Positions 49,728 through 64,000 of a DNA stretch of 64,000 nt are shown in pieces. The translations under genes were made by a program, and so were the position numbers. Below the pieces are notes generated by a model. That model ran no database searches. It saw nothing but the letters and a program-made list of their open reading frames with translations, and had not been told where the DNA came from. The DNA is from an uncultured Bacteroidales bacterium. Lineage in GTDB: Bacteria; Bacteroidota; Bacteroidia; Bacteroidales; FEN-979. Position 1 is the stretch's first letter. Each line of letters opens with the position of its first letter. The stretch covers positions 1-64,000 of the forward strand of contig CAJAUM010000089.1 in the NCBI GenBank assembly GCA_903945175.1. Direction: 5' to 3'.

Positions 49728-50798
49728 ATGTTTGAGAAAAAGATTGAATTCGATTTTAAAACCAACCAGGAAATCCTTAAAAGGATCAGTGCAATAGATG
49801 GTTTCAAGTCAGTCTGGCTGGGAATTGAGAAGAAAGAGAGCAGGTATCTCCGCGAGCTCCGTCAGATTGCCACCATTCAAAGTATTGGATCATCGACCCG
49901 TATTGAGGGTGCGACCATGAATGATGAAGAAATTAAATCGTTGTTAAATAATATCAAGATAACCAAGCTTAAATCTAGGGATGAGCAGGATGTTGTGGGA
50001 TACTATGAAGCGATTGACATGGTATATGCCAATTTCCAGGATATCCAATTAACTGAAAACTATATTAAACAGCTTCATGGAATGTTGTTGAAGTATAGTG
50101 AAAAGGATGTCAGGCACAGGGGCAAATACAAGAATTTACCGAACAAGGTCGTAGCTAATTATCCGGATGGTCAGCAGAAGGGAATCTTCAACACTACTGA
50201 ACCCCACCTGGTTGATAAAGAAATTATGGAAATCCTTCAATGGACCAATGTACAACTTGAGCAAAGCAGTATTCATCCTTTATTGACCATTCCATTATTT
50301 GTTTATGAGTTTCTGTCTATTCATCCTTTTCAGGATGGCAATGGCCGACTTTCCCGGCTTTTGACAACATTGTTACTTTTAAAGCATGGTTATTCCTTTG
50401 TTCCCTATATTTCATTTGAGAACATTATTGAACGACAAAAAAAACAGTATTATGAAGCCCTGATGTTGGGTCAGAAAAACCGTTATTCAAAAAAAGAAAA
50501 AATTGATGATTGGATTTTGTTCTTCCTGGATTGTCTGCAGGAGATGATTGCTCTGTTGGGAAAGAAGTACGATGTTCATAAAGAAAAGGGAGGATATTTA
50601 AACCCCAGGCAGAAAGAGGTACTGGAAGCGATCCGGGTAAATCAACCGGTCAAGTTCAGTGATATTATTGCTGCCTTACCGGCCTATTCACAAAATACTA
50701 TTAAGAAGGATTTGATTTACTTGGTTAATGAGCACCAGATCGAATCAATAGGTAGGAATAAAGGAACGGTTTATCATATCAGATCGGCTAATTCCTAA
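49728..50798 (+). CDS. Fic family protein with C-terminal winged helix
   Basis: Fic proteins transfer AMP or other nucleotide parts to target proteins. The 356-residue protein has the active-site loop H199-P-F-Q-D-G-N-G-R, an exact HPFx(D/E)GNGR match. An inhibitory helix S56-T-R-I-E60-G61 (S/T-x-x-x-E-G) precedes the Fic core, the class II arrangement, so the enzyme is probably self-inhibited until the Glu is displaced. The last 65 residues resemble a winged helix (L-N-P-R-Q-K-E-V-L-E-A-I), as in the Fic-DOC_N/DUF4172-type proteins. It stands alone; no antitoxin gene is adjacent. Confidence 0.92.
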   Translation: MFEKKIEFDFKTNQEILKRISAIDGFKSVWLGIEKKESRYLRELRQIATIQSIGSSTRIEGATMNDEEIKSLLNNIKITKLKSRDEQDVVGYYEAIDMVYANFQDIQLTENYIKQLHGMLLKYSEKDVRHRGKYKNLPNKVVANYPDGQQKGIFNTTEPHLVDKEIMEILQWTNVQLEQSSIHPLLTIPLFVYEFLSIHPFQDGNGRLSRLLTTLLLLKHGYSFVPYISFENIIERQKKQYYEALMLGQKNRYSKKEKIDDWILFFLDCLQEMIALLGKKYDVHKEKGGYLNPRQKEVLEAIRVNQPVKFSDIIAALPAYSQNTIKKDLIYLVNEHQIESIGRNKGTVYHIRSANS

Positions 50799-51106: not shown

Positions 51107-51189
51107 AATTGTTGTCAAAATAGTTGCCAGTTTTTTGACGATAACATTCTGAAACATCAGTAAAATCAATATGTTCAGAACTATTTCAG

Positions 51190-51263
51190 TGACCCCGGAG
51201 GGATTCAAACCCCCAACCTGCTGATCCGTAGTCAGCTACTCTATTCAGTTGAGCTACGAGGCC
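51190..51263 (-). tRNA. tRNA-Arg (anticodon ACG)
   Basis: On the minus strand the sequence folds into a full cloverleaf: acceptor stem GGCCTCG with CGGGGTC (several G-U pairs), D arm, anticodon stem GCTGA/TCAGC around loop CTACGGA giving anticodon ACG, and T arm GGGGG-TTTGAAT-CCCTC with one G-U pair. The discriminator base is A and the CCA end is not encoded. ACG becomes ICG after deamination and reads CGU, CGC and CGA. Confidence 0.93.
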
Positions 51264-51366: not shown

Positions 51367-52914
51367 ATGATAAGCGTTGGAATTCAGAAATTAACTCCGG
51401 ACGATTTCTATAAAATTCTTTTCCTTGAAGAGAAAATAAAACTTGACCCCAAGGCTGTTGCTAAGGTAAAGGCAAACTACCAATTTCTGAAAGAATTTGC
51501 CAAAGGAAAGGTGATCTATGGAATCAATACAGGACTTGGGCCCATGGCTCAATATAAAATAAACGGCAACAGCGAACTTCAATTACAATACAACCTGATT
51601 CGCAGCCACAGCGCCGGCTGCGGGACTCCCCTGCCAGCCATCTATGCCAAAGCAACCATGCTCGCCCGACTGAATACGTTTTTGCAGGCCAAATCGGGAA
51701 TCCATATCGAGGTGGTTGAATTACTGAAAGAACTGATCAATCGGAACATCAATCCCTATATCCCTGAGCACGGCGGTGTAGGAGCCAGCGGCGATCTCGT
51801 GCAACTGGCCCATCTTGCCCTGAACCTGATTGGAGAGGGGGAGATCTGGTATAAAGGCAAATTGCACCCTGCAAAGGAGGTTTTTCAGAAAGAGAAACTT
51901 ACACCTGTCAAAATGCACATCCGCGAAGGGCTCTCCCTTATCAACGGAACTTCGGCCATGACCGGTATCGGCATGATCAACCTTGTGCACGCAAAAAACC
52001 TCCTGGATTGGGCCGTGCTTGCTTCATCCATGATCAATGAAATTGTGGAATCCTACGATGACCATTTTTCAGAAGGACTGAACAAAGTAAAATCACATGA
52101 CGGGCAGAACCAGGTAGCACGGATGATGCGGTCGATTCTCCAGGACAGCAAACTGATCCGGCGCAGGGCCGACCACCTCTACAACGGAAAAACGGAAGAG
52201 GTGGAGGTGTTCACCCATAAAGTGCAGGAGTTTTACTCCCTGCGCTGCGTTCCCCAGGTACTTGGCCCGATCCTCGATACCATCCTGTATGCAGAGAAGG
52301 TGCTTATCAACGAAGTCAATTCAGCCAATGATAATCCCATTATCGACAGCGATGCCAAAAATGTATTTCATGGGGGTAATTTTCATGGGGATTATGTGGC
52401 CTTTGAGATGGATAAGCTGAAAATCGCCGTTACCAAACTCTCGATGCTCGCCGAGCGCCAGCTCAACTACCTGATGAACGAAAAGATGAACCAGAAACTG
52501 CCACCCTTTGTCAACCTGGGTAAACTTGGATTTAACCTTGGCATGCAGGGAGTGCAGTTCACAGCTGTGTCCACAGTGGCCGAAAATCAAACCATGTGCT
52601 TCCCCATGTCGATCCACAGCATAACAAACAACAACGACAACCAGGATATCGTGAGTATGGGCACCAACGCGGCCATGATGTCAAAGCGTGTAATCGACCA
52701 TACCTATATTGTGATGTCTATCCACATGATTGCGATTCTTCAGGCCATTGATTTTATGAAATTCAAACCCAAACTTTCGGCCTATTCCAGGAAAAAATTT
52801 GAAGATTTGCGCAAAATAGTCCCGAAATTCACAGAGGATACTACGAAGTATAAGGAGATACAACAGATCGTGAATTATATTCTTGAGAATAAACCTAAGT
52901 TTCCTGTGTTATGA
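51367..52914 (+). CDS. Tyrosine ammonia-lyase (aromatic amino acid lyase, FjTAL-like)
   Basis: Converts tyrosine to p-coumarate without cofactor other than the self-made MIO group. The 515-residue protein has the MIO triad A140-S141-G142 in G-G-V-G-A-S-G-D-L, the catalytic Tyr in V-I-Y-G-I-N-T-G near 56, and the family stretch G-N-F-H-G-D-Y near 340. The selectivity region reads Y-N-L-I-R-S-H-S-A-G, almost the same as in Flavobacterium johnsoniae TAL as I recall it (Y-N-L-I-R-S-H-S-S-G), which is a specific tyrosine lyase although S-H also occurs in histidine lyases. No other hut genes are adjacent. It heads the + strand gene cluster; p-coumarate would be the starter acid. Stop overlaps the fabG-like gene (ATGA). 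Confidence 0.85.
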   Translation: MISVGIQKLTPDDFYKILFLEEKIKLDPKAVAKVKANYQFLKEFAKGKVIYGINTGLGPMAQYKINGNSELQLQYNLIRSHSAGCGTPLPAIYAKATMLARLNTFLQAKSGIHIEVVELLKELINRNINPYIPEHGGVGASGDLVQLAHLALNLIGEGEIWYKGKLHPAKEVFQKEKLTPVKMHIREGLSLINGTSAMTGIGMINLVHAKNLLDWAVLASSMINEIVESYDDHFSEGLNKVKSHDGQNQVARMMRSILQDSKLIRRRADHLYNGKTEEVEVFTHKVQEFYSLRCVPQVLGPILDTILYAEKVLINEVNSANDNPIIDSDAKNVFHGGNFHGDYVAFEMDKLKIAVTKLSMLAERQLNYLMNEKMNQKLPPFVNLGKLGFNLGMQGVQFTAVSTVAENQTMCFPMSIHSITNNNDNQDIVSMGTNAAMMSKRVIDHTYIVMSIHMIAILQAIDFMKFKPKLSAYSRKKFEDLRKIVPKFTEDTTKYKEIQQIVNYILENKPKFPVL

Positions 52915-53639
52915 AGTACGCATTGATTACTGGCGGATCGCGGGGTATCGGGAGGGCAGTTTCAATAAAACTCGCTGAGATGGGTTATTCCGTTCTGATC
53001 AACTACCAGTCAAATCATCAGGAAGCTGAAATCACCCTGGAACAGGTTCGCGCAAAGGGCGGAAACGGGGAAATCGTAAAATTCAATGTGGCCTCCCAGG
53101 CAGAAGTTGAACAGGCACTCGGTGAATGGCAGGCAGCCCATCAAGGGGCCTATATCCAGGTACTCGTTAACAACGCCGGCATTCGGAAGGATGCCCTGGT
53201 GATGTGGATGAAAAATGAGGAATGGCACGATGTACTGGATACAAACCTCCACAGTTTCCTGTATGTCACGCGGTTCCTGATCAAGGATATGCTTGTCAAT
53301 AAAATGGGACGGATTATCAATGTGGTTTCTCTTTCAGGACTTAAGGGATTGCCAGGCCAGGTAAACTATTCAGCAGCCAAAGCCGGCGTGATAGGCGCCA
53401 CCAAGGCGCTGGCACAGGAAATTGCCAAGAAAAACGTAACTGTCAACGCCGTTGCACCCGGTTTCATTAAAACCGACATGACGAAAGATCTGGATGAAGC
53501 GCAACTGAAAACCATGATTCCCACAGGGCGCTTTGGAAGACCTGAAGAGGTGGCAGCCGTCGTGGGCTTCCTTGCCTCCGATGAGGCATCTTACGTAACA
53601 GGTGCGGTAATTAATGTGAATGGAGGACTGTATACATAG
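52911..53639 (+). CDS. fabG: 3-oxoacyl-ACP reductase (FabG-like)
   Basis: NADPH-dependent ketoreductase of 242 residues: T-G-G-S-R-G-I-G at 7-14, N-N-A-G near 89-92, catalytic Ser near 140 (V-S-L-S-G) and Y-S-A-A-K near 153-157. Length and motifs match FabG and ApeQ-type reductases of aryl-polyene pathways. It overlaps the TAL gene by four bases and precedes the ketosynthase, so a dedicated role in this pathway is more likely than the housekeeping one. Confidence 0.92.
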   Translation: MKYALITGGSRGIGRAVSIKLAEMGYSVLINYQSNHQEAEITLEQVRAKGGNGEIVKFNVASQAEVEQALGEWQAAHQGAYIQVLVNNAGIRKDALVMWMKNEEWHDVLDTNLHSFLYVTRFLIKDMLVNKMGRIINVVSLSGLKGLPGQVNYSAAKAGVIGATKALAQEIAKKNVTVNAVAPGFIKTDMTKDLDEAQLKTMIPTGRFGRPEEVAAVVGFLASDEASYVTGAVINVNGGLYT

Positions 53640-53677
53640 TGACCAATGACCAATGACAAATGACGAATGACCAATAG
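53639..53677 (+). repeat. Tandem heptamer repeat that supplies the ketosynthase start codon
   Basis: About five AATGACN units (AATGACC, AATGACA, AATGACG) begin at the fabG stop and run into the next gene. The last ATGACCAAT gives the ketosynthase start codon and residues 1-3 (M-T-N). Its unit is the same as at 10325-10358. Confidence 0.85.
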
Positions 53678-54887
53678 GGTTGTCATAACAGGTATGGGTA
53701 TTTACTCCGTGATTGGGAAAAATCTCGCTGAGGTAAAGGATTCGCTGTATCACGGCCGCTCCGGAATTATTTTTGATCCGGCCCGGAAGGCGTTGGGCTT
53801 CCGCTCTGCGCTCACCGGAATGGTCGACCGTCCTCATCTAAAAGGCATTCTCGATCGCAGAATGCGCATCGGATTACCCCTTCAGGGCGAATATGCCTAT
53901 ATTTCAACGCTTGAAGCGCTTCAGCATGCAGGGATCGAACAACCTTACCTGGATGCACATGAAGTCGGCATTCTTTTCGGCAATGACAGCTCGGCCCTGC
54001 CTGTGGTCGAATCTGTGGATATTCTGCGCCAGAAGAAAGATACCATGATGATCGGATCCGGATATATTTTTCAGTCGATGAATTCGACAGTTTCGATGAA
54101 TCTTTCGGTAATTTTCCGGTTGAAAGGAGTCAATTTCACCCTCAGCGGCGCCTGTGCCAGCGGTTCACATGCCATCGGCATCGGTTACTTGCTGATCAAG
54201 CAGGGACTTCAGGAGATGATCATTTGCGGCGGCGCCCAGGAGATCAACCCCGAATCAACAGCCAGCTTCGATGCGTTAAATGCCTTCTCGACCAGGGAAT
54301 CGGAACCGACCAAAGCATCCCGCCCCTTTGACCGCGACCGGGACGGACTTGTTCCCAGCGGTGGAGCTGCAACCGTTATTATTGAAAGTTATGAATCAGC
54401 GCTTAAACGCGGGGCAACCATATATGGAGAGGTGATCGGATATGGTTTTTCATCCAATGGAGAACATATTTCCATGCCCAACGTTGATGGACCAGTCCGT
54501 GCCATGGAGAAAGCCCTTTCCGATGCCGGAATAAAGCCCTTCGAAATCGGATACATCAATGCCCATGCGACTTCGACGCCGGCAGGCGACAGAAATGAAG
54601 CCCAGTCCATCGATCTGCTCTTTGGAAAATCAAAACCGATGATCAGCAGCACCAAATCAATGACAGGGCACGAAATGTGGATGGGTGGCGCCAGTGAAGT
54701 GATCTATTCGACCCTGATGATGAACCAGGGCTTTGTTGCTCCGAATATCAATTTTGAGAACCCGGATGACGCAACGGAAAAACTGAATATCGCTTCGAAA
54801 ACCACCCCATGCGAATTCAATGCCTTTCTCTCCAATTCGTTCGGTTTTGGCGGCACCAATTCATCATTGATCATCCGAAAAGTTTAA
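53667..54887 (+). CDS. Beta-ketoacyl-ACP synthase (FabF-like)
   Basis: Condensing enzyme of 406 residues that extends acyl-ACP with malonyl-ACP. The complete Cys-His-His triad is present: C163 in G-A-C-A-S-G-S-H, H300 in N-A-H-A-T-S-T-P-A-G-D and H335 in M-T-G-H-E-M-W-M-G-G. The conserved Phe in S-F-G-F-G-G-T-N-S near the C-terminus is also there. It is therefore a functional ketosynthase and not a chain-length factor. It follows fabG across a heptamer repeat. With the second ketosynthase near the right edge it could form a heterodimer, as in aryl-polyene and flexirubin pathways, but two independent enzymes are also possible. Confidence 0.92.
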   Translation: MTNRVVITGMGIYSVIGKNLAEVKDSLYHGRSGIIFDPARKALGFRSALTGMVDRPHLKGILDRRMRIGLPLQGEYAYISTLEALQHAGIEQPYLDAHEVGILFGNDSSALPVVESVDILRQKKDTMMIGSGYIFQSMNSTVSMNLSVIFRLKGVNFTLSGACASGSHAIGIGYLLIKQGLQEMIICGGAQEINPESTASFDALNAFSTRESEPTKASRPFDRDRDGLVPSGGAATVIIESYESALKRGATIYGEVIGYGFSSNGEHISMPNVDGPVRAMEKALSDAGIKPFEIGYINAHATSTPAGDRNEAQSIDLLFGKSKPMISSTKSMTGHEMWMGGASEVIYSTLMMNQGFVAPNINFENPDDATEKLNIASKTTPCEFNAFLSNSFGFGGTNSSLIIRKV

Positions 54888-54915
54888 TCCCTTTCTTTCT
54901 TAAAAGAAAATTAGC

Positions 54916-54923
54916 TATTTTTG
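54916..54923 (+). promoter_or_regulatory. -7-type element before the ACP gene
   Basis: TATTTTTG matches TAnnTTTG, 22 bases before the ACP ATG, in the 58-base gap after the ketosynthase. An internal promoter here would uncouple the ACP and downstream genes from the TAL part. No -33 TTTG was found. Confidence 0.35.
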
Positions 54924-54945
54924 CATCGGTTAAAGAACGATACAG

Positions 54946-55194
54946 ATGCAAAATGATGAGATTATCAGGAAGATAAACCAGCTCCTGATTGATGAGATTG
55001 AAATTGATGTAAACCAGATACACCCTGCTGCCGATCTTAAAAAAGACTTAGGAATTGACAGCCTTGATTTTGTTGACCTTTTTGTGATTGTTGAAAATAA
55101 TTTTGGCTTTAAGATGAAGGCTGAAGAGATGACTGACCTCAAATCATTGGAGGATTTTTACAGCTACATCATCAAACGAATCAACCCAAATTAA
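54946..55194 (+). CDS. Acyl carrier protein
   Basis: An 82-residue acidic carrier. The phosphopantetheine site is Ser39 in G-I-D-S39-L-D-F-V-D-L, preceded by the usual helix and D-L-K-K-D-L. It would carry the growing acyl chain for the ketosynthase, reductase and dehydratase here. Only one ACP is seen within the window, whereas flexirubin and aryl-polyene clusters often have two. Confidence 0.93.
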   Translation: MQNDEIIRKINQLLIDEIEIDVNQIHPAADLKKDLGIDSLDFVDLFVIVENNFGFKMKAEEMTDLKSLEDFYSYIIKRINPN

Positions 55195-55200
55195 TCGTAA

Positions 55201-56121
55201 ATGTCATCTTGGGAAGGCAAAACCCGGGGAGGGGTTCTGGGGTATAAAATATTTGTCTGGACCCTGAAATATCTGGGTCTCCGCTTCGCTTACTTCCTGC
55301 TCTCATTCGTTGTGATCTATTTCCTGGCTACCTCAGGTAAGGCATTTAATGCCATTTTTCATTTTTACAGCAAGGTGATGAAGTACAACCGCGCAAAAGC
55401 TTTCCTCAGTATCTACCGGAATTATTACATGTTCGGACAGATTCTACTCGATAAAATTGCAATGATTGCGGGATTTCAGCAACGCTTCACCTTTAATTTT
55501 GAAGGGGAAGAGTACCTGCGCCAGATGCATGACGGCGGATTGCTGGTGAGCGCACATGTAGGTAACTGGGAAATTGCCGGCCAGTTATTGAGCAGACTTG
55601 AAAAACGAATCCATATCATTTTATTTGACGCTGAACATCAGCGAATTAAAGGATATTTATCTGATGTGATGTCCAACCGCAATGTCAGCTTCATCGTAAT
55701 ACGCGATGATTTTTCGCATCTGCTGGAGATCAAACAAGCGCTTGCCAATAAAGAGATCATTGCCATGCACGGCGACCGGTTCATTGAAGGGAACAAGACC
55801 ATCCTGCTCGAATTCATGGGAAGCGCTGCGGCATTCCCGATCGGCCCCATCAATATGGCCGCCAAATTCAATGTTCCGGTTTCTTTTGTCTTTGCAGTGA
55901 AGGAGTCCCGCAGCCATTATCATTTTTATGCTACACCGCTCACCACGGTGGCCTTTAGCACAAATCAGAAACAGCGGGAAGATAATTTCCGCCGGGCCCT
56001 GGAAATCTATGTTGCTAAATTTGAAGAGATCCTGTTTAAATATCCGCTTCAATGGTTTAATTATTACGATTTTTGGAAACTTCCGGATAATTTACCACGG
56101 TTACCTGAAACGAGCCCATGA
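55201..56121 (+). CDS. LpxL/HtrB-like lysophospholipid acyltransferase
   Basis: A 306-residue membrane-associated acyltransferase. One N-terminal hydrophobic helix (about 35-50) anchors it. The catalytic H-x4-E motif is H119-V-G-N-W-E124 and the binding stretch H-G-D-R-F (about 195-199) is present. LpxL relatives transfer acyl chains from ACP to lipid A, and in aryl-polyene and flexirubin clusters similar proteins attach the chain to a lipid. It starts six bases after the ACP gene and overlaps the radical SAM gene by four bases (ATGA). Confidence 0.88.
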   Translation: MSSWEGKTRGGVLGYKIFVWTLKYLGLRFAYFLLSFVVIYFLATSGKAFNAIFHFYSKVMKYNRAKAFLSIYRNYYMFGQILLDKIAMIAGFQQRFTFNFEGEEYLRQMHDGGLLVSAHVGNWEIAGQLLSRLEKRIHIILFDAEHQRIKGYLSDVMSNRNVSFIVIRDDFSHLLEIKQALANKEIIAMHGDRFIEGNKTILLEFMGSAAAFPIGPINMAAKFNVPVSFVFAVKESRSHYHFYATPLTTVAFSTNQKQREDNFRRALEIYVAKFEEILFKYPLQWFNYYDFWKLPDNLPRLPETSP

Positions 56122-57482
56122 CCATGAAAGAGAAAAAGCTACTCTTTGTTTCAGCAAACCGTTATGCCAACCCCTACCCGGTTTACCCGTTGGGGATCTC
56201 ATACCTGTTTACCTATCTGAGCGAACGCCTTCCCCATTACCAAATCAGGATATTTGACTTTAACCTCCATACGCCCGACTCTTTCAGGGAATATCTTAAG
56301 GATTTTCAACCGGATTATGTTGGCCTATCACTGCGAAATATTGATGATGTTAACTTTTACAGCCAGGAAAGCTTCGTCCATGGATATAAAATGATTGTTG
56401 ACATCATACGTGAAATGTCCAAATCACCGCTGATCATCGGTGGCTCTGCCTTCTCTATCTATCCAAAGGAGCTTTTTTCCATGCTGAACCCCGATTATGG
56501 AATACAGGGCGAAGGAGAAGAAAGCCTTCATAACTTTTTAGTCAGCCTCGATTCAGGAACACCCGATTTAAGTATTGATGGTCTTGTATACCGAAATAGC
56601 GAGGAGGTGCTGGTCAACAGCCGGAAACACTTCATCAAAACACCTGACCTTGATTTCGACAAGGGATTGCTTGAGTTTTATTGGGATAAAGCCGGGATGG
56701 TGAATGTGCAGACAAAGCGTGGCTGTCCCTATAATTGCATCTATTGCACCTACCCGCTTATCGAAGGGCACAACGTGCGCACGCTCGATCCGGATAAAAT
56801 TGTTTATACCCTGCGTCAGTTGTATGAAAAGCACAAAATCGATTATGTGTTTTTTACCGATTCCGTGTTCAACATCAGCAACCAATTCAACATCGACCTG
56901 GCCAATAAGATGATCGCCTCAAAGCTGCCTATGCACTGGGGAGCCTATTTCTCACCACATAATTTATCGCTTGAAAATCTGAAATTATTTGCTCAGGCAG
57001 GCCTGACCCATATCGAATTTGGCACTGAATCTCTTTCAGATACCACCCTGAAAAAATATGGAAAACATTTCAATGTGGACGAAGTTGTCACTGTATCGGA
57101 TTTTTGCAACCAGGCAGGCATCTATTTCTGTCATTTCATGATCATAGGCGGATATGGTGAAACAGAAGCCACCATCAACGAGAGTTTTGAAAATTCCAAA
57201 CGCATCGAAAATACCGTATTCTTTCCCTTCATTGGCATGCGGATCTATCCGGGAACGGTACTGCATCATATTGCCATTGAACAGGGGATCATTCATGCCG
57301 AAGACAAACTGCTTGAACCGGTCTATTACATTGCCCCCGGAATTGACTATGATACACTGAAGGAGCGCGCCGACCAAACCGGCCGCAGATGGGTCTTTCC
57401 CAATGAAGATGTTGCAACAGCCATGAACCGGCTCAGGAAACGAAAACGTAAAGGATCGCTATGGCACCATTTGAAAAAATAA
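56118..57482 (+). CDS. B12-binding-domain radical SAM protein of the lipid cluster
   Basis: A 454-residue protein: an N-terminal B12-binding-like domain (1-130) with no D-x-H-x-x-G motif, then a radical SAM barrel with C203-x3-C207-x2-C210 and an F-T-D-S-V-F-N-I-S-N strand. It resembles the B12-binding/radical SAM proteins NCBI labels as lipid biosynthesis enzymes, some of which occur in anammox ladderane candidate clusters. That link is by recollection. In this operon its substrate is probably the ACP-bound or released acyl chain; it could methylate, cyclize or isomerize it. The gene overlaps the acyltransferase (4 bases) and the hotdog gene (22 bases), so translation is tightly coupled. Confidence 0.82.
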   Translation: MTMKEKKLLFVSANRYANPYPVYPLGISYLFTYLSERLPHYQIRIFDFNLHTPDSFREYLKDFQPDYVGLSLRNIDDVNFYSQESFVHGYKMIVDIIREMSKSPLIIGGSAFSIYPKELFSMLNPDYGIQGEGEESLHNFLVSLDSGTPDLSIDGLVYRNSEEVLVNSRKHFIKTPDLDFDKGLLEFYWDKAGMVNVQTKRGCPYNCIYCTYPLIEGHNVRTLDPDKIVYTLRQLYEKHKIDYVFFTDSVFNISNQFNIDLANKMIASKLPMHWGAYFSPHNLSLENLKLFAQAGLTHIEFGTESLSDTTLKKYGKHFNVDEVVTVSDFCNQAGIYFCHFMIIGGYGETEATINESFENSKRIENTVFFPFIGMRIYPGTVLHHIAIEQGIIHAEDKLLEPVYYIAPGIDYDTLKERADQTGRRWVFPNEDVATAMNRLRKRKRKGSLWHHLKK

Positions 57483-57874
57483 ACATACCTCAGGCCCCCC
57501 CGATGGTGATGGTCGACAAACTCGTTGAGATAGTCGATAAAACCACTGTGACCACTTTTTTGATTCTTGAAGACAATGTTTTTTGTGAGAACGGGGAGTT
57601 CCGTGAAGCGGGTATGATTGAAAACATGGCTCAAACTGCCGCTGCCGGCGTGGGTGCAACACATGGAATTCCTGGAGGGAACGCTCCGCTTGGTTTTATT
57701 GGGGGCATACGAAACCTTAAAATTGAAGCATTGCCTAAGGTTGGCCAGGAGATTATGACAAGGGTTACCGTTTTGCATGAAGTATTTGATGCGACCATTG
57801 TTCAGGGAGAGATATTCCTGAACACGCGGTTGATAGCTGGATGTGAACTTAAAATTTTCTTAATCAATAATTAG
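57461..57874 (+). CDS. Hotdog-fold 3-hydroxyacyl-ACP dehydratase-like protein lacking the catalytic His
   Basis: A 137-residue single hotdog protein. The Glu helix reads A-G-M-I-E-N-M-A-Q-T-A, matching the FabZ/ApeP active-site helix. The catalytic His of the preceding P-H-R-x-P-F/M motif is replaced: the sequence is I-P-Q-A-P-P-M-V-M-V-D. The enzyme is therefore either a non-canonical dehydratase or acts as a partner subunit or in substrate binding. It overlaps the radical SAM gene by 22 bases. If it is inactive, dehydration in this pathway must come from an enzyme outside the window. Confidence 0.8.
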   Translation: MAPFEKINIPQAPPMVMVDKLVEIVDKTTVTTFLILEDNVFCENGEFREAGMIENMAQTAAAGVGATHGIPGGNAPLGFIGGIRNLKIEALPKVGQEIMTRVTVLHEVFDATIVQGEIFLNTRLIAGCELKIFLINN

Positions 57875-57877
57875 CAT

Positions 57878-58303
57878 ATGGAACATTCGACAGTAGAGGA
57901 AAGTGACCGCCTACCCGATGAAAGCGAATTGCTATATACGTATAACCGGGAGGTTTTTTATCATTTTGACAAGGAGAAGGGGTTCACGCAAAAAATTGAG
58001 TATCAGAACCCAAACAACCAGGTGATCATCAAACAGAGTTGGGATGCCGCTGAACAACGTCTCGAAGAGGTAAAGCAGCTGGTTATCATTGGAAAACTCA
58101 GTCCCATTGCCTATTATATGGAAAAAATACTCATGGAGGTTCCCATGTTGGCGGCCTACATGGAAATTCCAAAATGGCGGGTTAAAAGACATATGAAAAG
58201 TAAAATTTTTAAAAAACTGAAACCTGAACTGCTGGCAAAATATGCTGCTGTATTCGAAATCCCCGTTGGGCAGTTGACCAATCCTGATTTTTTAAATAAA
58301 TAA
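57878..58303 (+). CDS. Small conserved protein with Xre-like C-terminus, copy 1
   Basis: A 141-residue protein of a family I cannot name. N-terminal half is hydrophilic (E-L-L-Y-T-Y-N-R, then N-N-Q-V-I-I-K-Q-S-W-D). The middle has a highly conserved S-P-I-A-Y-Y-M-E-K, and the C-terminal ~50 residues have the pattern of a Cro/Xre-type helix-turn-helix: M-L-A-A-Y-M-E-I-P-K-W-R-V-K-R-H-M and L-L-A-K-Y-A-A-V-F-E-I-P-V-G-Q-L. Copy 2 at 59372 shares about half its residues by eye. Each copy directly precedes a BtrH-like gene, here with 12 bases between. It may bind DNA, or use this fold to bind an ACP or the BtrH partner. Confidence 0.72.
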   Translation: MEHSTVEESDRLPDESELLYTYNREVFYHFDKEKGFTQKIEYQNPNNQVIIKQSWDAAEQRLEEVKQLVIIGKLSPIAYYMEKILMEVPMLAAYMEIPKWRVKRHMKSKIFKKLKPELLAKYAAVFEIPVGQLTNPDFLNK

Positions 58304-58315
58304 AAAGACAAAATA

Positions 58316-59317
58316 ATGGTGAAACTTGAATTTGAGCATCGGCAAGCAGGACATTGTGAAAGTGGCGTAACACGCAACCTGCTTAACTATCATCATTTTA
58401 AAATAAGCGAACCCATGGCGTTCGGTATCGGGGCCGGGCTGTTTTTCAGCTACCTGCCTTTTCTCAAGATGCAGCATGCACCAACCACATCCTTCAGGGT
58501 GTGGCCTGGGCAGGTGTTCGATCGGGCCACCAAGGAACTCGGCGTAAAAACTGCGGTTCACACCTTCCGTAACCCGAAAGATTCCATGGATAAACTGAAT
58601 GCGGTGCTTGATCAGGGTTATCCGGTCGGGCTGCAGGTAGGAACCTTTCACCTGCCATTTTTTCCGCCTGAATACCGTATGCATTATAATATGCATAACA
58701 TGATTGCCTATGGCCATGATAATGGGACCTATTATATTAGCGATACCCTGATGGAGAACCTGGTGGAGATCAATTACGAAGACCTCATGCGGGTACGATT
58801 TGCCAAAGGGGCCTTTGCTCCCCAGGGGAGAATGTATTATCCAACGTTTGTCCCCAAAGATATTGATATCAAACCTGCCATCATCAAAGGAATCCGGAAA
58901 ACGGCCAACAATATGGTTGGCATTCCCTTCCCGCTCATTGGTGCCAAAGGAATCCGTTATCTGGCAGGCCGGATGAGAAAATGGGAAAAGAACCTTGGCC
59001 CTGAGAAGGCCTCCTATTACCTCGGGCAGGTTTTGCGCATGGAGGAGGAGGTCGGTACTGCCGGTGCAGGTTTCAGATTTATCTATGGTGCCTTCCTCGA
59101 AGAGGCATCCACAGCCCTGAACCAGCCATGGCTCAAGGAATTATCAATCGAAATGGGTGAAACAGCCAATAAATGGCGGGAATTTTCATACCTCGGATCC
59201 AGGAATTGTAAAAAACGGGGAAAAGCAGATCAGTCCTATAACTTTTTAGCGGACATGCTCATTGAGATTGCCGGACGCGAGGAGAAGATTTTCCGCAAAT
59301 TGGCCAAAATCAAATAA
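58316..59317 (+). CDS. BtrH-like cysteine acyltransferase, copy 1
   Basis: A 333-residue protein. Residues 1-170 match the BtrH_N domain, a papain-like fold: nucleophile Cys in H-R-Q-A-G-H-C-E-S-G near residue 15, the base His in M-H-N-M-I-A-Y-G-H-D near 122-127, and Y-I-S-D near 133-136. A DUF4872-like helical C-terminus follows. BtrH moves an acyl group from an ACP to the amine of an aminoglycoside in butirosin biosynthesis. By analogy this protein may release or transfer the acyl chain built here. Copy 2 is similar along its whole length. Confidence 0.78.
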   Translation: MVKLEFEHRQAGHCESGVTRNLLNYHHFKISEPMAFGIGAGLFFSYLPFLKMQHAPTTSFRVWPGQVFDRATKELGVKTAVHTFRNPKDSMDKLNAVLDQGYPVGLQVGTFHLPFFPPEYRMHYNMHNMIAYGHDNGTYYISDTLMENLVEINYEDLMRVRFAKGAFAPQGRMYYPTFVPKDIDIKPAIIKGIRKTANNMVGIPFPLIGAKGIRYLAGRMRKWEKNLGPEKASYYLGQVLRMEEEVGTAGAGFRFIYGAFLEEASTALNQPWLKELSIEMGETANKWREFSYLGSRNCKKRGKADQSYNFLADMLIEIAGREEKIFRKLAKIK

Positions 59318-59371
59318 AATCTATAATTTCGCATCAGTAAAATTGATTGTGGTAATTTAATACTGGAATCT

Positions 59372-59767
59372 ATGGAAGAAAATCCCAATCCGGTTTACAA
59401 GGATCAGCGTTATGGCCAGTCAAAGGAATTGCTTTATTCCTACGATGCAGATGGTCAGTTTCATAAAAACGTCGGTTTTCATGGTGAACCCGACAGGATC
59501 ATTTTGCAGCAAGCGTGGGATCATTTTGATGAACGCATTGCGGATGCCAGACAAAGGGTGTTGGCCGGCAAGGCAAGCCCGATTGTTTATTACATGGAGA
59601 AATTTCTCGCCGATCCACTGAATCTTTCAATGATGGCGGGTATTTCGATTTGGCGGGTAAAATGGCATCTCCGACCTGGTGCATTCAAGCGTTTAAATGA
59701 AAAAACGCTGAAGAAATATGCTGATGCCTTTAATATTACGGTGGCACAGCTAAAGAAAGTTGAATAA
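59372..59767 (+). CDS. Small conserved protein with Xre-like C-terminus, copy 2
   Basis: A 131-residue paralogue of the protein at 57878. Shared features: E-L-L-Y-S-Y-D near the start, I-I-L-Q-Q-A-W-D, G-K-A-S-P-I-V-Y-Y-M-E-K-F-L, W-R-V-K-W-H-L and L-K-K-Y-A-D-A-F-N-I-T-V-A-Q-L. The last block matches the final two helices of Xre-family DNA-binding domains. It is followed 18 bases later by the second BtrH-like gene. The duplication must be old, since the two are clearly diverged, but the order and spacing have been preserved. Confidence 0.72.
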   Translation: MEENPNPVYKDQRYGQSKELLYSYDADGQFHKNVGFHGEPDRIILQQAWDHFDERIADARQRVLAGKASPIVYYMEKFLADPLNLSMMAGISIWRVKWHLRPGAFKRLNEKTLKKYADAFNITVAQLKKVE

Positions 59768-59785
59768 GATCAAAAACAACTTCCT

Positions 59786-60802
59786 ATGGAAATAAAAACA
59801 ATGATAAATTATACGCATCGCCAAGCCGGACATTGCGAAAGTGGTGCCACATCCAATTTATTGAACTACTACGGAATTAACATGTCGGAGCCGATGGCCT
59901 TTGGAATCGGGAACGGACTATATTTTAGCTATATCCCGTTTTTAAAAGTGCAGTTTGCACCCATGATCTCTTTTCGTAATCTTCCGAACACTGTTTTTCA
60001 TCGCTCAATGAAGTACCTGGGAATCGAGGCAACAGTGATAAAAAAATTCAGGGATCCGAAAGAGGCCATGGTTGCCCTCGACCGAAACCTCGAAAAGGGA
60101 ATCCCTACCGGGATGCAGGTGGGTGTGTTTAATCTTACCTTCTTTCCGCCTGAATACCGTATGCACTATAACATGCACAACCTTGTTTGTTATGGAAAAG
60201 AAGGGGATCTTTACCATATCAGTGATACGGTGATGGAAACAGCCCAGGTGCTTACCTATGAAGATCTGCTCAGGGTACGATATGCAAAGGGTGTTTTTGC
60301 CCCTGAAGGAAAGATGTACTGGATCGACAAGATCCCAAATGAGTTAGATATCAAGTCGGCCGTTTCGATGGGAATTAAAAAGACCGTTTACGAAATGATC
60401 AAGATCCCGTTTCCCTTAATTGGCGTTAAAGGGCTGAAATGGATGGGCCGGGATCTCCGGAAGTGGCCTAAAAAACATGGTGTGGACAAAGCCTCATTTT
60501 ATCTTGGCCAGGTTTTGAGAATGGCAGAAGATTTTGGAACAGGAGGTGCCGGATTCCGGTTTATTTATGGTGATTTCCTCAAAGAGGCAGGTGAAAAATT
60601 TAACCATACGGAACTGCTTGAAGCTTCCCAGATGATGGGTAAAACGGCCAACAAATGGAGGGAATTCACCTATATCGGCGCACGTAACTGTAAAAACCGG
60701 TCAAAACCCGAAGAAGATTATGGCATGCTTGGGGATATGATGCATGAAATTGCCGGAATGGAAGAACAGGTTTACAAAAAATTAGACAAAATAAAGCTTT
60801 AG
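59786..60802 (+). CDS. BtrH-like cysteine acyltransferase, copy 2
   Basis: A 338-residue paralogue of the protein at 58316, with the same nucleophile motif H-R-Q-A-G-H-C-E-S-G (Cys near residue 17), the M-H-Y-N-M-H-N-L-V-C-Y-G His region and H-I-S-D. A second in-frame ATG five codons in would give an N-terminus like copy 1. Its stop TAG adjoins the ATG of the ABC ATPase gene without a gap, so it is cotranscribed with the exporter. Two BtrH-type enzymes suggest two acyl transfer steps or two acceptor positions (inference). Confidence 0.78.
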   Translation: MEIKTMINYTHRQAGHCESGATSNLLNYYGINMSEPMAFGIGNGLYFSYIPFLKVQFAPMISFRNLPNTVFHRSMKYLGIEATVIKKFRDPKEAMVALDRNLEKGIPTGMQVGVFNLTFFPPEYRMHYNMHNLVCYGKEGDLYHISDTVMETAQVLTYEDLLRVRYAKGVFAPEGKMYWIDKIPNELDIKSAVSMGIKKTVYEMIKIPFPLIGVKGLKWMGRDLRKWPKKHGVDKASFYLGQVLRMAEDFGTGGAGFRFIYGDFLKEAGEKFNHTELLEASQMMGKTANKWREFTYIGARNCKNRSKPEEDYGMLGDMMHEIAGMEEQVYKKLDKIKL

Positions 60803-61555
60803 ATGTCTGACCGACCGATTATTGAAATCAGGGAGTTAACAAAATTCTACAAGGGGAATGACGAGCCGGCCTTAAATACGATTTCCCTGGAGATATTCCC
60901 AGGCGAGATATTTGGACTGCTGGGCCCCAACGGAGCTGGAAAAACCACGACCATCTCCATTCTTTGCGGACTATTCCCCCCTACCCGGGGAGAGGTGTAT
61001 ATTGACGGAATGGAAATCAGGTCGAATCTTGATAAAATCAAACACATCATTGGTGTTGTACCCCAGGATCTCGCCCTCTACCCTACTTTGACTGCCCTGG
61101 AGAATCTCACTTTTTTTGGTAATATGTATGGATTGAGAGGCCAGGATTTGCGCACCCGCATCTTTGAATACCTGAAGGTATTCGGGCTTGAAAAGGCATC
61201 GCGCAAAAGAATTTCCAGCTATTCAGGCGGTATGAAGCGCAGGGTGAACCTGATCGCTGGCTTGCTTCACCGCCCCAAGGTGCTTTTTCTGGATGAACCA
61301 ACCGTCGGTATCGATGTTCAATCGCGCATGGTCATTCTTGATTATCTTAAGGAAATCAATAAAATCGGAACGACCATCATCTATACGTCACATTACATGG
61401 AAGAGGCGGAAAACCTGTGTTCCAGGGTGGCCATTGTCGATCATGGCAGGATCATCTCCATCGGAAATCCCAGGGAATTATTAAAAGATCATCCGGAATT
61501 CAAAAATTTGGAAAATATCTTCTTACATCTCACCGGAAAAGAGATGAGAGACTAA
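60803..61555 (+). CDS. ABC transporter ATP-binding protein (ABC-2 type)
   Basis: A 250-residue ATPase with Walker A G-P-N-G-A-G-K-T-T near 39-47, Q-loop V-V-P-Q-D-L, signature Y-S-G-G-M-K-R-R-V near 134-142, Walker B V-L-F-L-D-E-P-T-V near 153-161, and H-loop T-S-H-Y-M-E-E near 189-195. It pairs with the permease gene nine bases downstream. The cluster context suggests export of the pathway's lipid product or precursor, a role common to flexirubin and aryl-polyene clusters. Confidence 0.95.
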   Translation: MSDRPIIEIRELTKFYKGNDEPALNTISLEIFPGEIFGLLGPNGAGKTTTISILCGLFPPTRGEVYIDGMEIRSNLDKIKHIIGVVPQDLALYPTLTALENLTFFGNMYGLRGQDLRTRIFEYLKVFGLEKASRKRISSYSGGMKRRVNLIAGLLHRPKVLFLDEPTVGIDVQSRMVILDYLKEINKIGTTIIYTSHYMEEAENLCSRVAIVDHGRIISIGNPRELLKDHPEFKNLENIFLHLTGKEMRD

Positions 61556-61564
61556 ACAGACCGT

Positions 61565-62866
61565 ATGTTTAAATTCATATCTACCATCAGGAAGGAAACG
61601 CTGATCCTGCTTCGTGATAAAGCTGGATTAATCATTGTTTTCCTGATGCCCATGGTGTTGATTATCATTATGTCTTTGCTACAGGAGGTAGGTTATAGTT
61701 CAATCAACCGCGAGACGCAGATTGATATTCTTTTTTTGGATCAGGATAAAGACAGCCTTGGCCTTAAAATCAGGGAAGGACTTAACAGCTCCCATTATTT
61801 TCACCTGCTCGATTCGGTTCATCAGGAACCTGCAACGGATTCGAATATCAGGGAAGCCGTTAAAAGGGGTGAATATGTTATCGGGATCGTCATACCAAAG
61901 GGTGTTACTAAAAAAATAAGGTCGAATGTGCGGATTATGGTTGCAAAAACCCTGGAAGGCTTTGGCTTGTATAATGCCAACCTCTTTGGGGATATTCCAT
62001 TGGCTAAAGCAGACACGATTACCATCTATTTTGACCCGACTGTTAAGCAGACCTTTAAAAATACCATTATCAGCTCCCTGAAACAGTATAATTACAAAAT
62101 TGAATCAGAAATGATTTTTTCCACCTTTAACCATGAGATGGCTAAAGCATTTCCGACTTACCAGCCCCCGGATCTGATGTTTAAGGATGCTGTTGAATTC
62201 CATGAGGTTTTTCCTTCCTACCATGCAATTGACAAGATACCCACCACAGCACAACACAATGTGCCGTCATGGGCCGTTTTTGCAATGTTCTTCATCATTA
62301 TCCCCTTGACTTCAAGTATGATTGTTGAAAGGGAGGAAGGAAGCATGTTCCGTATCATGGCCATGCCAGTCAACTACCTGATGCTGCTTATCGGAAAGGT
62401 GTTTGTTTATATGGTCGTCTGTTTTGTCCAGACTGTCTTTATGATCCTTGCCGGAATATTTATCCTTCCGTTATTCAATTCCGCTCCTTTGGTTATGGGA
62501 AATCACATATTTCCGCTTGTGGTGATGACCATCATGAGTGCCCTTGCAGCATTGGGATATGGTGTGATGGTTGGAACAATGGCCACCACGCATCAGCAGG
62601 CAGCTGCATTTGGGGCAGTTTCCATCATCATCATGGCCGCCCTGGGCGGACTCTGGGTGCCCATGTACCTCATGGCCCCGGTTATGCAGCACGTGGCAAC
62701 CTTCAGCCCTTTGAACTGGGCATTAAGCGGTTATTATGATATTTTTATCCGGGGAGGCGGATTGAAAGAGATCCTTCCTGAATTATTGAAATTGTTGATT
62801 TTTTTCCTCTCTTCCATTGTAATAACCGGGATATATATGAAAGTTAAAAATCCCATGTCTAAATAA
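61565..62866 (+). CDS. ABC-2 type permease
   Basis: A 433-residue permease. The first TM helix (about 20-42) is followed by a large extracytoplasmic region (about 45-235), then five further helices from about 235 to 425. The F-I-I-I-P-L-T-S-S-M and S-I-I-I-M-A-A-L-G-G-L-W-V-P segments are typical of ABC2_membrane_3 proteins. Two such subunits and two ATPases form the exporter. The thioesterase gene begins three bases after the stop. Confidence 0.93.
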   Translation: MFKFISTIRKETLILLRDKAGLIIVFLMPMVLIIIMSLLQEVGYSSINRETQIDILFLDQDKDSLGLKIREGLNSSHYFHLLDSVHQEPATDSNIREAVKRGEYVIGIVIPKGVTKKIRSNVRIMVAKTLEGFGLYNANLFGDIPLAKADTITIYFDPTVKQTFKNTIISSLKQYNYKIESEMIFSTFNHEMAKAFPTYQPPDLMFKDAVEFHEVFPSYHAIDKIPTTAQHNVPSWAVFAMFFIIIPLTSSMIVEREEGSMFRIMAMPVNYLMLLIGKVFVYMVVCFVQTVFMILAGIFILPLFNSAPLVMGNHIFPLVVMTIMSALAALGYGVMVGTMATTHQQAAAFGAVSIIIMAALGGLWVPMYLMAPVMQHVATFSPLNWALSGYYDIFIRGGGLKEILPELLKLLIFFLSSIVITGIYMKVKNPMSK

Positions 62867-62869
62867 TTT

Positions 62870-63283
62870 ATGCAACTCATCGACTCCAGAGAGATCATTG
62901 TGAGGTTCTCAGAAGTTGATTCCATGCGCATCGTATGGCATGGAAACTATCTGAAATACTTTGAAGATGGCCGTGAATCATTCGGATTGAAATACAGCCT
63001 TGGATACCTTGATGTCTATAAACACCATGTGATGATCCCGCTTGTCAAAATCAACTGTGACTACAAACGTCCACTTGAATATGGAGATACAGCCATCGTT
63101 GAAACCCGTTTTATTCCGACGGATGCCGCGAAGATTGTGTTTGAATACACCATCTACAAGAACAATGATCAGGATGTAGCCGCAACGGGTTCTTCCACCC
63201 AGGTTTTTCTTACTCCCGAGGGTGAATTGCTGCTGAACTCCCCTGAATTTTTCACCGGTTGGAAAAAGAGATGGGGCGTTTAA
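62870..63283 (+). CDS. Acyl-ACP/CoA thioesterase (YbgC/4HBT type)
   Basis: A 137-residue hotdog thioesterase. The catalytic loop reads S-E-V-D-S-M-R-I-V-W-H-G-N-Y-L-K-Y-F-E-D-G-R, close to the 4-hydroxybenzoyl-CoA thioesterase motif D-x-x-x-x-x-x-H-x-x-Y. It would hydrolyse the acyl-ACP or acyl-CoA thioester of the cluster's product or trim wrongly loaded chains. Thioesterases of this kind are standard in aryl-polyene clusters. It starts three bases after the permease stop. Confidence 0.88.
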   Translation: MQLIDSREIIVRFSEVDSMRIVWHGNYLKYFEDGRESFGLKYSLGYLDVYKHHVMIPLVKINCDYKRPLEYGDTAIVETRFIPTDAAKIVFEYTIYKNNDQDVAATGSSTQVFLTPEGELLLNSPEFFTGWKKRWGV

Positions 63284-63294
63284 CCGTGAACAAA

Positions 63295-64000
63295 ATGAAA
63301 CCAGTTTATATTTTTAATGACAGCATCATCTCTTCACTTGGATTTACCACAGCCGAAAATGTTGCTGCCATTAAAAACGATACCATCGGGATCCGCATGG
63401 TGAATGATCCTGCGCTTTACCCTAAACCGGTTCTGCTTTCACTTGTTGATACCGATAAACTCAATGTGAGATTTGCGGAAGTTTTGAAGGAATACAAAAA
63501 AAGCGTTCCGGCTGAATCATTTACCCGCCTCGAAAAAATGTTCATCGTTTCAATCTCAGATGCCTTGAAAGAACAGGCAAATGTCCTGCGAAGTCGCCAA
63601 ACGCTGCTGGTAATCTCAACGACAAAAGGAAACATCGATCTTCTTGAGAATCGCCACAAGGCTGCCTTCAGCCACAAACGGGTTTATCTTTGGGAACTGG
63701 GGCGGGTCATTCAACAGTTTTTTGGTTTCCTGAATCCTCCGTTGATTATCTCCAATGCCTGTATTTCAGGTGTTGTAGCCATGATGACGGCAACCCGTTG
63801 TCTGCAGTCGGGAGCCTATGACCATGCCATTGTTACAGGAGGCGATATGGCCTCTGAATTCGTCATCTCCGGTTTTGCCTCATTCCAGGCTCTGAGCCCT
63901 GATGCGTGCAAACCCTTCGATATGAACCGGTCCGGATTATCGCTGGGCGAAGGATGTGGGACCGTGGTTCTTTCAACCGAACAGCCGCTATCTTCTGAAG
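63295..64000 (+). CDS. Second beta-ketoacyl synthase, 3' end outside window
   Basis: An open frame from an ATG at 63295 (an in-frame GTG at 63286 is less likely) through the window end, 235 codons so far. The thiolase fold is recognisable by S-N-A-C-I-S-G-V-V-A-M at about 157-167, with the active-site Cys near 160, and by the D-M-N-R-S-G-L-S-L-G-E-G-C-G-T segment near 210-224. The N-terminal third is shorter and diverged from FabF. The two His cannot be judged. Similar diverged ketosynthases occur as partners of the main ketosynthase in aryl-polyene and flexirubin clusters. The gene follows the thioesterase by 11 bases. Confidence 0.85.
   Translation, partial: MKPVYIFNDSIISSLGFTTAENVAAIKNDTIGIRMVNDPALYPKPVLLSLVDTDKLNVRFAEVLKEYKKSVPAESFTRLEKMFIVSISDALKEQANVLRSRQTLLVISTTKGNIDLLENRHKAAFSHKRVYLWELGRVIQQFFGFLNPPLIISNACISGVVAMMTATRCLQSGAYDHAIVTGGDMASEFVISGFASFQALSPDACKPFDMNRSGLSLGEGCGTVVLSTEQPLSSE

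Follow-up and report, generated by a model that had tools for sequence, protein, structure and literature searches.

A B12-binding radical SAM gene that may stand in for FlxJ in a flexirubin-type aryl-polyene cluster

The described gene clusters closest to the locus reported here are the flx cluster of Chitinophaga pinensis and the flexirubin cluster of Flavobacterium johnsoniae (MIBiG BGC0000839 and BGC0000838, respectively, according to PMC9248904). As set out in PMC3992019, these clusters encode a tyrosine ammonia-lyase (TAL), a ketoreductase, ketosynthases, a dehydratase, a thioesterase, a deacetylase, LolA, and FlxY, and the same kinds of genes are found on contig CAJAUM010000089.1 (hereafter C89) of an uncultured Bacteroidales bacterium. 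The window, meaning the whole stretch of DNA that was analyzed, is 64,000 bases long and corresponds to bases 1–64000 of the 140913 in this contig, which belongs to a genome given as 98% complete. The comparison with the two known systems was made via the clusters of relatives and the text of PMC3992019 rather than with the two MIBiG records. Unlike those systems, the locus on C89 carries a B12-binding radical S-adenosylmethionine (SAM) gene (56118–57482, + strand; TIGR04072, 428 bits, cut-off 360) at the place occupied by FlxJ in some relatives. It also differs from them in having two tandem DarG–DarH modules plus a third elsewhere on the contig, and no DarB match over the cut-off.

Ring methylation and ring chlorination differ among flexirubins, and the ring methyl of the C. 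pinensis flexirubin is derived from methionine with the loss of one ring deuterium (PMC3992019). A head group probably methylated by a dedicated enzyme is also a feature of the Escherichia coli ape cluster, where ApeB is the likely SAM head-group methyltransferase of the aryl polyene (PMC8253772). In contrast to the enzyme considered here, ApeB depends on SAM without B12, and the part of the E. coli gene table covered from that source lists no TAL.

We propose that the radical SAM protein of C89 is probably a cobalamin-dependent methylase that replaces FlxJ and acts on the aryl head group of a flexirubin-type polyene. The evidence is drawn from sequence: gene content, a shared slot, no joint occurrence in the clusters examined, repeated exchange, a TsrM-like predicted fold, and a conserved arginine. 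The cluster is of a known kind; the radical SAM gene is its novelty, and its BtrH-related modules are ordinary. The original prediction, which had called the whole cluster possibly undescribed, was too strong, although that description may fit the radical SAM variant. Within the open-access literature searched, no paper containing both “flexirubin” and “radical SAM” was found, and papers that use other wording or require a subscription could differ. Among the papers listed in the literature searches, no tested function for TIGR04072 was evident.

Exchange of the radical SAM gene with FlxJ

We compared 83 clusters picked for FlxA, FlxJ or the radical SAM gene, a non-random set that includes close relatives. 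Left out were seven repeated loci (six of them genome_contigs loci that duplicate others), any locus no longer than 3.9 kb, and small loci for which a larger version existed. To be kept, a locus also needed a recognized flxB or first ketosynthase (KS1) accompanied by an acyltransferase or a dehydratase. The radical SAM gene is present in 54 of the 83 clusters and FlxJ in 21, whereas eight have neither and none has both. With neighbors taken among recognized genes only, the radical SAM gene lies between the acyltransferase and the dehydratase in 46 of its 54 clusters. In 45 of these 46 cases it is <400 bases from both neighbors; the exception is locus L066, where it lies 4.5 kb after the acyltransferase. 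Four further radical SAM clusters have the gene after the acyltransferase, with no recognized gene beyond it.

FlxJ occupies the same slot between the acyltransferase and the dehydratase in eight of its 21 clusters, each time within 400 bases of its neighbors. For example, genome G280, which belongs to the window's order, has the gene order flxA, flxB, KS1, the first acyl carrier protein (ACP1), acyltransferase, FlxJ, dehydratase, thioesterase, and the second ketosynthase (KS2). Nine more examples of the FlxJ slot show the same surrounding genes, two of them outside the 83 clusters. Radical SAM clusters such as that of Flammeovirga (L083) repeat the G280 gene order with the radical SAM gene in place of FlxJ; the cultured Flammeovirga aprica also carries the radical SAM gene, in cluster L085. 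At the level of genomes, FlxJ is absent at E 1e-40 from all 43 genomes of the window's family; of the 393 genomes from the order, 67 carry it. Among these 67 FlxJ-bearing genomes, the only ones to which the count of joint occurrence applies, a single one (G713) also has TIGR04072.

A tree of FlxB and KS1 was built with 68 rows (48 radical SAM, 14 FlxJ, and six neither). Fourteen of the 83 clusters were left out because they offered no usable flxB or KS1, and L045 was left out of both the tree and the approximately unbiased (AU) test because its KS1 belongs to a different gene group. The best tree has five changes between radical SAM and FlxJ, or seven when the third state is counted. When only firm branches are considered, the radical SAM label must still change three times and the FlxJ label four times, and a quick tree with L045 kept gives seven changes between the two types instead of five. 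Placing all FlxJ clusters in a single clade is rejected by the AU test (p 5e-7), as is a single clade of the radical SAM clusters (p 1.4e-4). This pattern looks like non-orthologous replacement of one gene by the other, several times over.

In a draw of 395 genomes from the phylum, TIGR04072 was detected at E 1e-60 in two (one being the window's own genome), compared with 33 for FlxA; up to four first-look candidates were scored per genome, so misses are possible. These counts led us to reject the radical SAM gene as a standard flexirubin part, in agreement with the original prediction, which had regarded the enzyme as non-standard. Of the 43 genomes in the window's family, 37 have FlxA. TIGR04072 passes its cut-off in 38, a number that rises to 42 at E 1e-60 when a second, weaker paralogue located elsewhere is counted. 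In 31 of the 37 FlxA-bearing family genomes, the coordinates place the TIGR04072 gene on the FlxA contig, a few kilobases farther downstream. In the remaining six the genes are on separate contigs or no full flx copy was found, and three of these have a contig that breaks off shortly after FlxA.

Among named genomes, this arrangement or one much like it, at times lacking flxA, recurs in many Bacteroidales assemblies, two Flammeovirga genomes, and assemblies of SAR324 and Sumerlaeota. Among the best 80 of 548 confirmed matches, 48 loci are in flx clusters (42 within the 83 clusters and six repeats), and the remaining 32 sit on short contigs or in different surroundings. In the tree of radical SAM proteins, 53 of the 54 from flx clusters fall in one clade of 72 rows, which they share with some relatives from other settings. 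One rearranged case is L045, from the window's own genus, which is a reduced locus with TAL, FlxB, radical SAM, dehydratase, DarG, and acyltransferase genes and no adjacent ketosynthase. Four family genomes of one genus (L029, L030, L031, L032) have a cluster without flxA, which is also missing from them by genome search. Upstream of the cluster, these four loci carry long frames of about 860–1130 amino acids.

The acyltransferase and the radical SAM protein form a single open frame in two family genomes, and frames of 713–798 residues point to the same fusion in seven more. The fusion is also present at three loci from named records (L051, L052, L075). Since the fused proteins occupy two separate places in the radical SAM tree, at least two fusion events probably occurred.

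Predicted fold and proposed role

The predicted model of the radical SAM protein has a mean predicted local distance difference test (pLDDT) score of 92. Its best fold match in the PDB is TsrM, with template modeling (TM) scores of 0.84–0.89 on the query length over four chains, and the next enzymes reach at most 0.73. TsrM is a cobalamin-dependent enzyme that methylates C2 of tryptophan by non-radical chemistry. The two proteins share the overall fold (TM up to 0.89), the CX3CX2C motif, found here at C203/C207/C210, and an arginine: Arg73 aligns with Arg69 of TsrM. In TsrM, Arg69 sits beneath the cobalt and blocks its ligation (PMC8992657; PMC13331322). Among 92 relatives this position is Arg in 91, and the remaining one reads X. 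By contrast, the equivalent of Arg69 is missing from all nine other distinct B12-radical-SAM-like proteins encoded in the window's genome (12 frames, of which three pairs are identical). The nearest NCBIfam model after TIGR04072 is BzaD (TIGR04385; 202 bits over residues 22–405), a B12 lower-ligand radical SAM protein of a different pathway that has been termed a methyltransferase (PMC8123684).

FlxJ has the domains PF21212 and PF00891, including a methyltransferase domain, and these are unrelated to the domains of the radical SAM protein. The two enzymes probably serve the same step. A scheme for the pathway can be outlined. FlxA would deaminate tyrosine to 4-coumarate, which FlxY, encoded at a second locus, would activate. 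The set of FabF, ACP, FabG, and dehydratase proteins would lengthen 4-coumarate into the polyene, and the LpxL-like acyltransferase and the DarG–DarH modules would pass the polyene from the ACP to acceptors. The ABC (ATP-binding cassette) exporter together with LolA2 and LolB2 may then carry the product to the outer membrane. In this scheme the B12 radical SAM protein would transfer a methyl group from SAM via methylcobalamin to the aryl head group. With TsrM-like chemistry, the position most likely to be methylated is ortho to the phenol, and the ortho carbon of a phenolate is a plausible nucleophile. Methyl transfer itself, its substrate, position, and timing, and every step of product assembly are inferred for this organism.

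Two further observations are consistent with head-group methylation. The acyltransferase–radical SAM fusions were counted in its favor. In addition, the FlxJ cluster of L136 has a tryptophan-halogenase-like gene next after FlxJ, which fits a spot for head-group tailoring because flexirubins vary in both ring methylation and ring chlorination (PMC3992019).

Several observations weigh against this assignment. Exchange by itself leaves equal chemistry unproven, tailoring genes of unlike function can swap at one place, and no tested function was found for FlxJ itself. FlxJ also has other places in its 21 clusters, with seven and five cases in two other slots and one between acyltransferase and thioesterase. 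Sometimes it lies outside flx clusters altogether (e.g., L184 and L197), and G713 has the radical SAM gene in its flx cluster and FlxJ elsewhere. Among the 33 FlxA genomes of the phylum draw, eight have FlxJ (two of them far from FlxA), one has TIGR04072, and 24 have neither at the thresholds applied. Methylation is therefore not universal, and the absence of joint occurrence is partly expected. In addition, the 83 clusters are no random sample and include close relatives. No flxA is seen at 14 of the 54 radical SAM loci, in some cases owing to contig ends, and because flxA is missing by genome search from the four family genomes of one genus, the starter may differ there.

The protein itself gives further reason for caution. 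TsrM Glu273, which holds SAM off the cluster iron, has Val250 as its counterpart here; in the 92 relatives this residue is V in 71, T in seven, I in seven, L in four, and A in three, and never Glu. With a non-acidic residue at this position, radical chemistry may take place. Identity to TsrM is about 20%, TsrM belongs to a different pathway, and the scores for the TsrM model TIGR04428 (109 bits, cut-off 500) and for BzaD (cut-off 450) are far below their cut-offs. Arg73 is also present in relatives outside flx clusters, which makes it a mark of the family and not of the substrate.

In another explanation, the cluster slot is filled by either of two tailoring enzymes, FlxJ or the radical SAM enzyme, whose chemistry differs. 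The latter might methylate the chain or the acceptor, or it might carry out a radical cyclization or rearrangement on a polyenoyl-ACP, as in the proposal for anammox ladderanes. TIGR04072 (rSAM_ladder_B12) takes its name from ladderane clusters, and the B12 radical SAM protein Kuste2803, which may belong to TIGR04072, has been proposed for ladderane cyclization (PMC2649909). The Val in place of Glu273 may let SAM reach the iron, fusion to an acyltransferase fits an acyl substrate, and relatives of the protein occur in other ketosynthase/ACP settings, with the second paralogue elsewhere in most family genomes. However, different chemistry leaves unexplained why FlxJ and the radical SAM gene do not co-occur in the clusters compared and swap in one slot. 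The fold, moreover, is clearly nearest to that of an aromatic C-methylase, and the Arg69 equivalent is kept. We consider this explanation possible, if on the unlikely side.

The proposal of a head-group methylase invites a wider speculation that seems to us doubtful as a whole. All of TIGR04072, including the members from ladderane-like clusters, might be C-methylases that depend on cobalamin, have a TsrM-like cobalt site, and act on electron-rich conjugated substrates attached to a carrier protein. In flexirubin-type clusters they would have been exchanged repeatedly with an unrelated SAM methyltransferase. Because the blocking Glu of TsrM is missing, the family may represent a mechanistic half-way form, in which the cobalt is capped by Arg and SAM can still reach the iron. 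TIGR04072 offers a fresh test of what makes cobalamin-dependent radical SAM enzymes radical or non-radical. A family named for ladderanes is now placed in a partly known pathway, where it swaps with a candidate methyltransferase, and its role there becomes open to a test on a single gene, read out as a 14-Da mass difference, in a Flammeovirga strain from a culture collection. The cobalamin-dependent radical SAM class is generally oxygen-sensitive. If head-group methylation by this enzyme is true, then two unrelated enzymes, of which one depends on B12, carry out a single biosynthetic step and substitute for each other at one position in the cluster.

Cluster genes, DarG–DarH modules, and the second locus

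By its gene content, the locus is a flexirubin-type aryl-polyene cluster whose left part lies in the window. The run starts at 51367 on the + strand and comprises 14 complete genes plus a 15th that is cut at the window end (64000). The original prediction of a tightly packed run on one strand is borne out by overlaps of four bases (TAL/FabG), four bases (acyltransferase/radical SAM), and 22 bases (radical SAM/hotdog), with many other genes overlapping or nearly so, but its count of thirteen genes was too low. Pfam and NCBIfam models confirmed the domains it had named, with weak support for one hotdog protein.

The run opens with flxA, encoding TAL (51367–52914; NF053541, 829 bits, cut-off 700), followed by the short-chain dehydrogenase/reductase (SDR) ketoreductase gene flxB (52911–53639; NF053542, 400 bits, cut-off 340), KS1 in the flxC position (53667–54887; PF00109/PF02801), ACP1 (54946–55194; PF00550), and the LpxL-like acyltransferase (55201–56121; PF03279). 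Beyond the radical SAM gene in the FlxJ slot is a putative hotdog dehydratase in the flxF position (57461–57874), a weak assignment with 25 bits for FabZ (cut-off 113) and no Pfam domain at E 0.001. After the DarG–DarH modules come an ABC transporter ATPase (60803–61555; PF00005), an ABC-2 permease (61565–62866; PF12698), a 4HBT thioesterase (62870–63283; PF13279; TIGR00051, 72 bits, cut-off 68.7), and KS2 (63259–64000, with 63295 as the likelier start), which is cut by the window edge and ends at C89:64470. To the right of the window, as far as C89:72286, the cluster continues with an ACP, further ketosynthases and ketosynthase-like proteins, a polysaccharide deacetylase, LolA2 (200 bits, cut-off 125), and LolB2 (75 bits, cut-off 60), the last two both over their NCBIfam cut-offs.

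The two small-protein plus BtrH modules had been predicted to be non-standard parts, a view that does not hold. They are DarG–DarH pairs for which NCBIfam models exist, and they adjoin DarB in flx clusters of other genomes (L127, L133, L138). Copy 1 consists of darG (57878–58303; NF053536 DarG_fam, 103 bits, cut-off 70) and darH, a BtrH-related acyltransferase (58316–59317; NF053550, 415 bits, cut-off 300; PF14399 and PF16169). Copy 2 has darG at 59372–59767 (118 bits) and darH at 59786–60802 (405 bits), with the same models and cut-offs. These scores led us to reject the modules as new. The stricter flexirubin_DarG equivalog gives 111 and 115 bits for the two darG copies, against a cut-off of 170. 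The darG copies are 37% identical to each other and the darH copies 57%. BtrH-type enzymes transfer acyl groups. For DarH, sequence searches gave no confident solved relative, the best being Azi29 (E 0.74) and AziU3 (E 0.78). The dar cluster of Azoarcus, too, is listed with a BtrH-like gene (PMC3949708). Chance is no issue for the assignments of FlxA, TIGR04072, and both DarH copies, given how far their scores exceed the cut-offs.

A second locus lies on the same contig at about 111–125 kb of C89 (L007, L008). It holds FlxY, a third DarG–DarH pair (DarH 329 bits, cut-off 300), an ACP, a sulfotransferase, an O-methyltransferase-like protein, and another B12 radical SAM protein. The FlxY coumarate ligase (C89:123359–124663; 717 bits, cut-off 520) is ∼51 kb right of the main cluster. 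In eight relatives (L059, L062, L063, L064, L068, L071, L086, L185), genes of the second locus are directly beside flxA on the other strand, which ties this locus to the main cluster. With FlxA, FlxB, FlxY, LolA2, and LolB2 over their cut-offs, the prediction of a TAL-primed aryl-polyene pathway related to flexirubin was correct.

DarB gave no match at E 1e-20 within the window, as predicted, and none over the cut-off in the whole genome or in any of the 43 family genomes; the best match in the window's genome scores 86 bits against a cut-off of 550. Nor is darB located directly to the right, an arrangement that would make this an ordinary flexirubin cluster: LolB2 is followed by a strand switch, then by a hybrid sensor kinase and gas-vesicle genes. 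A weak DarB match exists in 27 of the 43 family genomes, and in the window's genome it is a 3-ketoacyl-ACP synthase III (KAS III) gene at C89:94913. The candidate DarA neighbors of DarB in three relatives were matched by no NCBIfam model at E 1e-10. The gene content thus supports the polyene half well, whereas the dialkylresorcinol half expected of a true flexirubin, an ester of an aryl polyene with the dialkylresorcinol that DarB makes, lacks support. Because no DarB is over the cut-off, the locus is filed as a flexirubin-type aryl-polyene cluster and not as a proven flexirubin cluster.

An ordinary cluster could nonetheless look like this if the product were a standard flexirubin, the dar genes lay elsewhere, and the radical SAM gene were a passenger. 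FlxA, FlxB, FlxY, DarH, LolA2, and LolB2 are all over their cut-offs, darA and darB are apart from the flx locus in C. pinensis (PMC3992019), and the weak KAS III matches here and in the family could be read as candidates for DarB. However, those matches fall far short of the cut-off. A passenger would also not be expected to keep its place across very distant lineages and to become fused to its neighbor in at least two, and the window's own genome is the only one of the 33 flxA-bearing genomes in the phylum draw with the radical SAM gene at E 1e-60. We therefore regard an ordinary flexirubin cluster as very unlikely.

The KAS III gene belongs to a lipid-type gene group at C89:92.6–101.5 kb (L003:9635–18539) that also encodes a thioesterase, two enoyl-CoA hydratases, a haem-binding protein, FabF, and a FabD-like protein. 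It includes a natural fusion of 859 amino acids between a B12 radical SAM-like part and a 3-hydroxyacyl-CoA dehydrogenase. The group adjoins the second TIGR04072 paralogue in several family relatives (L039, L040, L042, L044). It might make the acceptor of the polyene.

A tRNA-Arg gene on the opposite strand (51189–51263) lies just before the cluster start. A Fic-domain protein is encoded upstream of both (49728–50798). The gas-vesicle genes past the pigment cluster (L002:11770–19953) include several GvpL/GvpF genes, one with a DnaJ domain, together with genes for a CDC48-like AAA ATPase and an ArsA-like ATPase.

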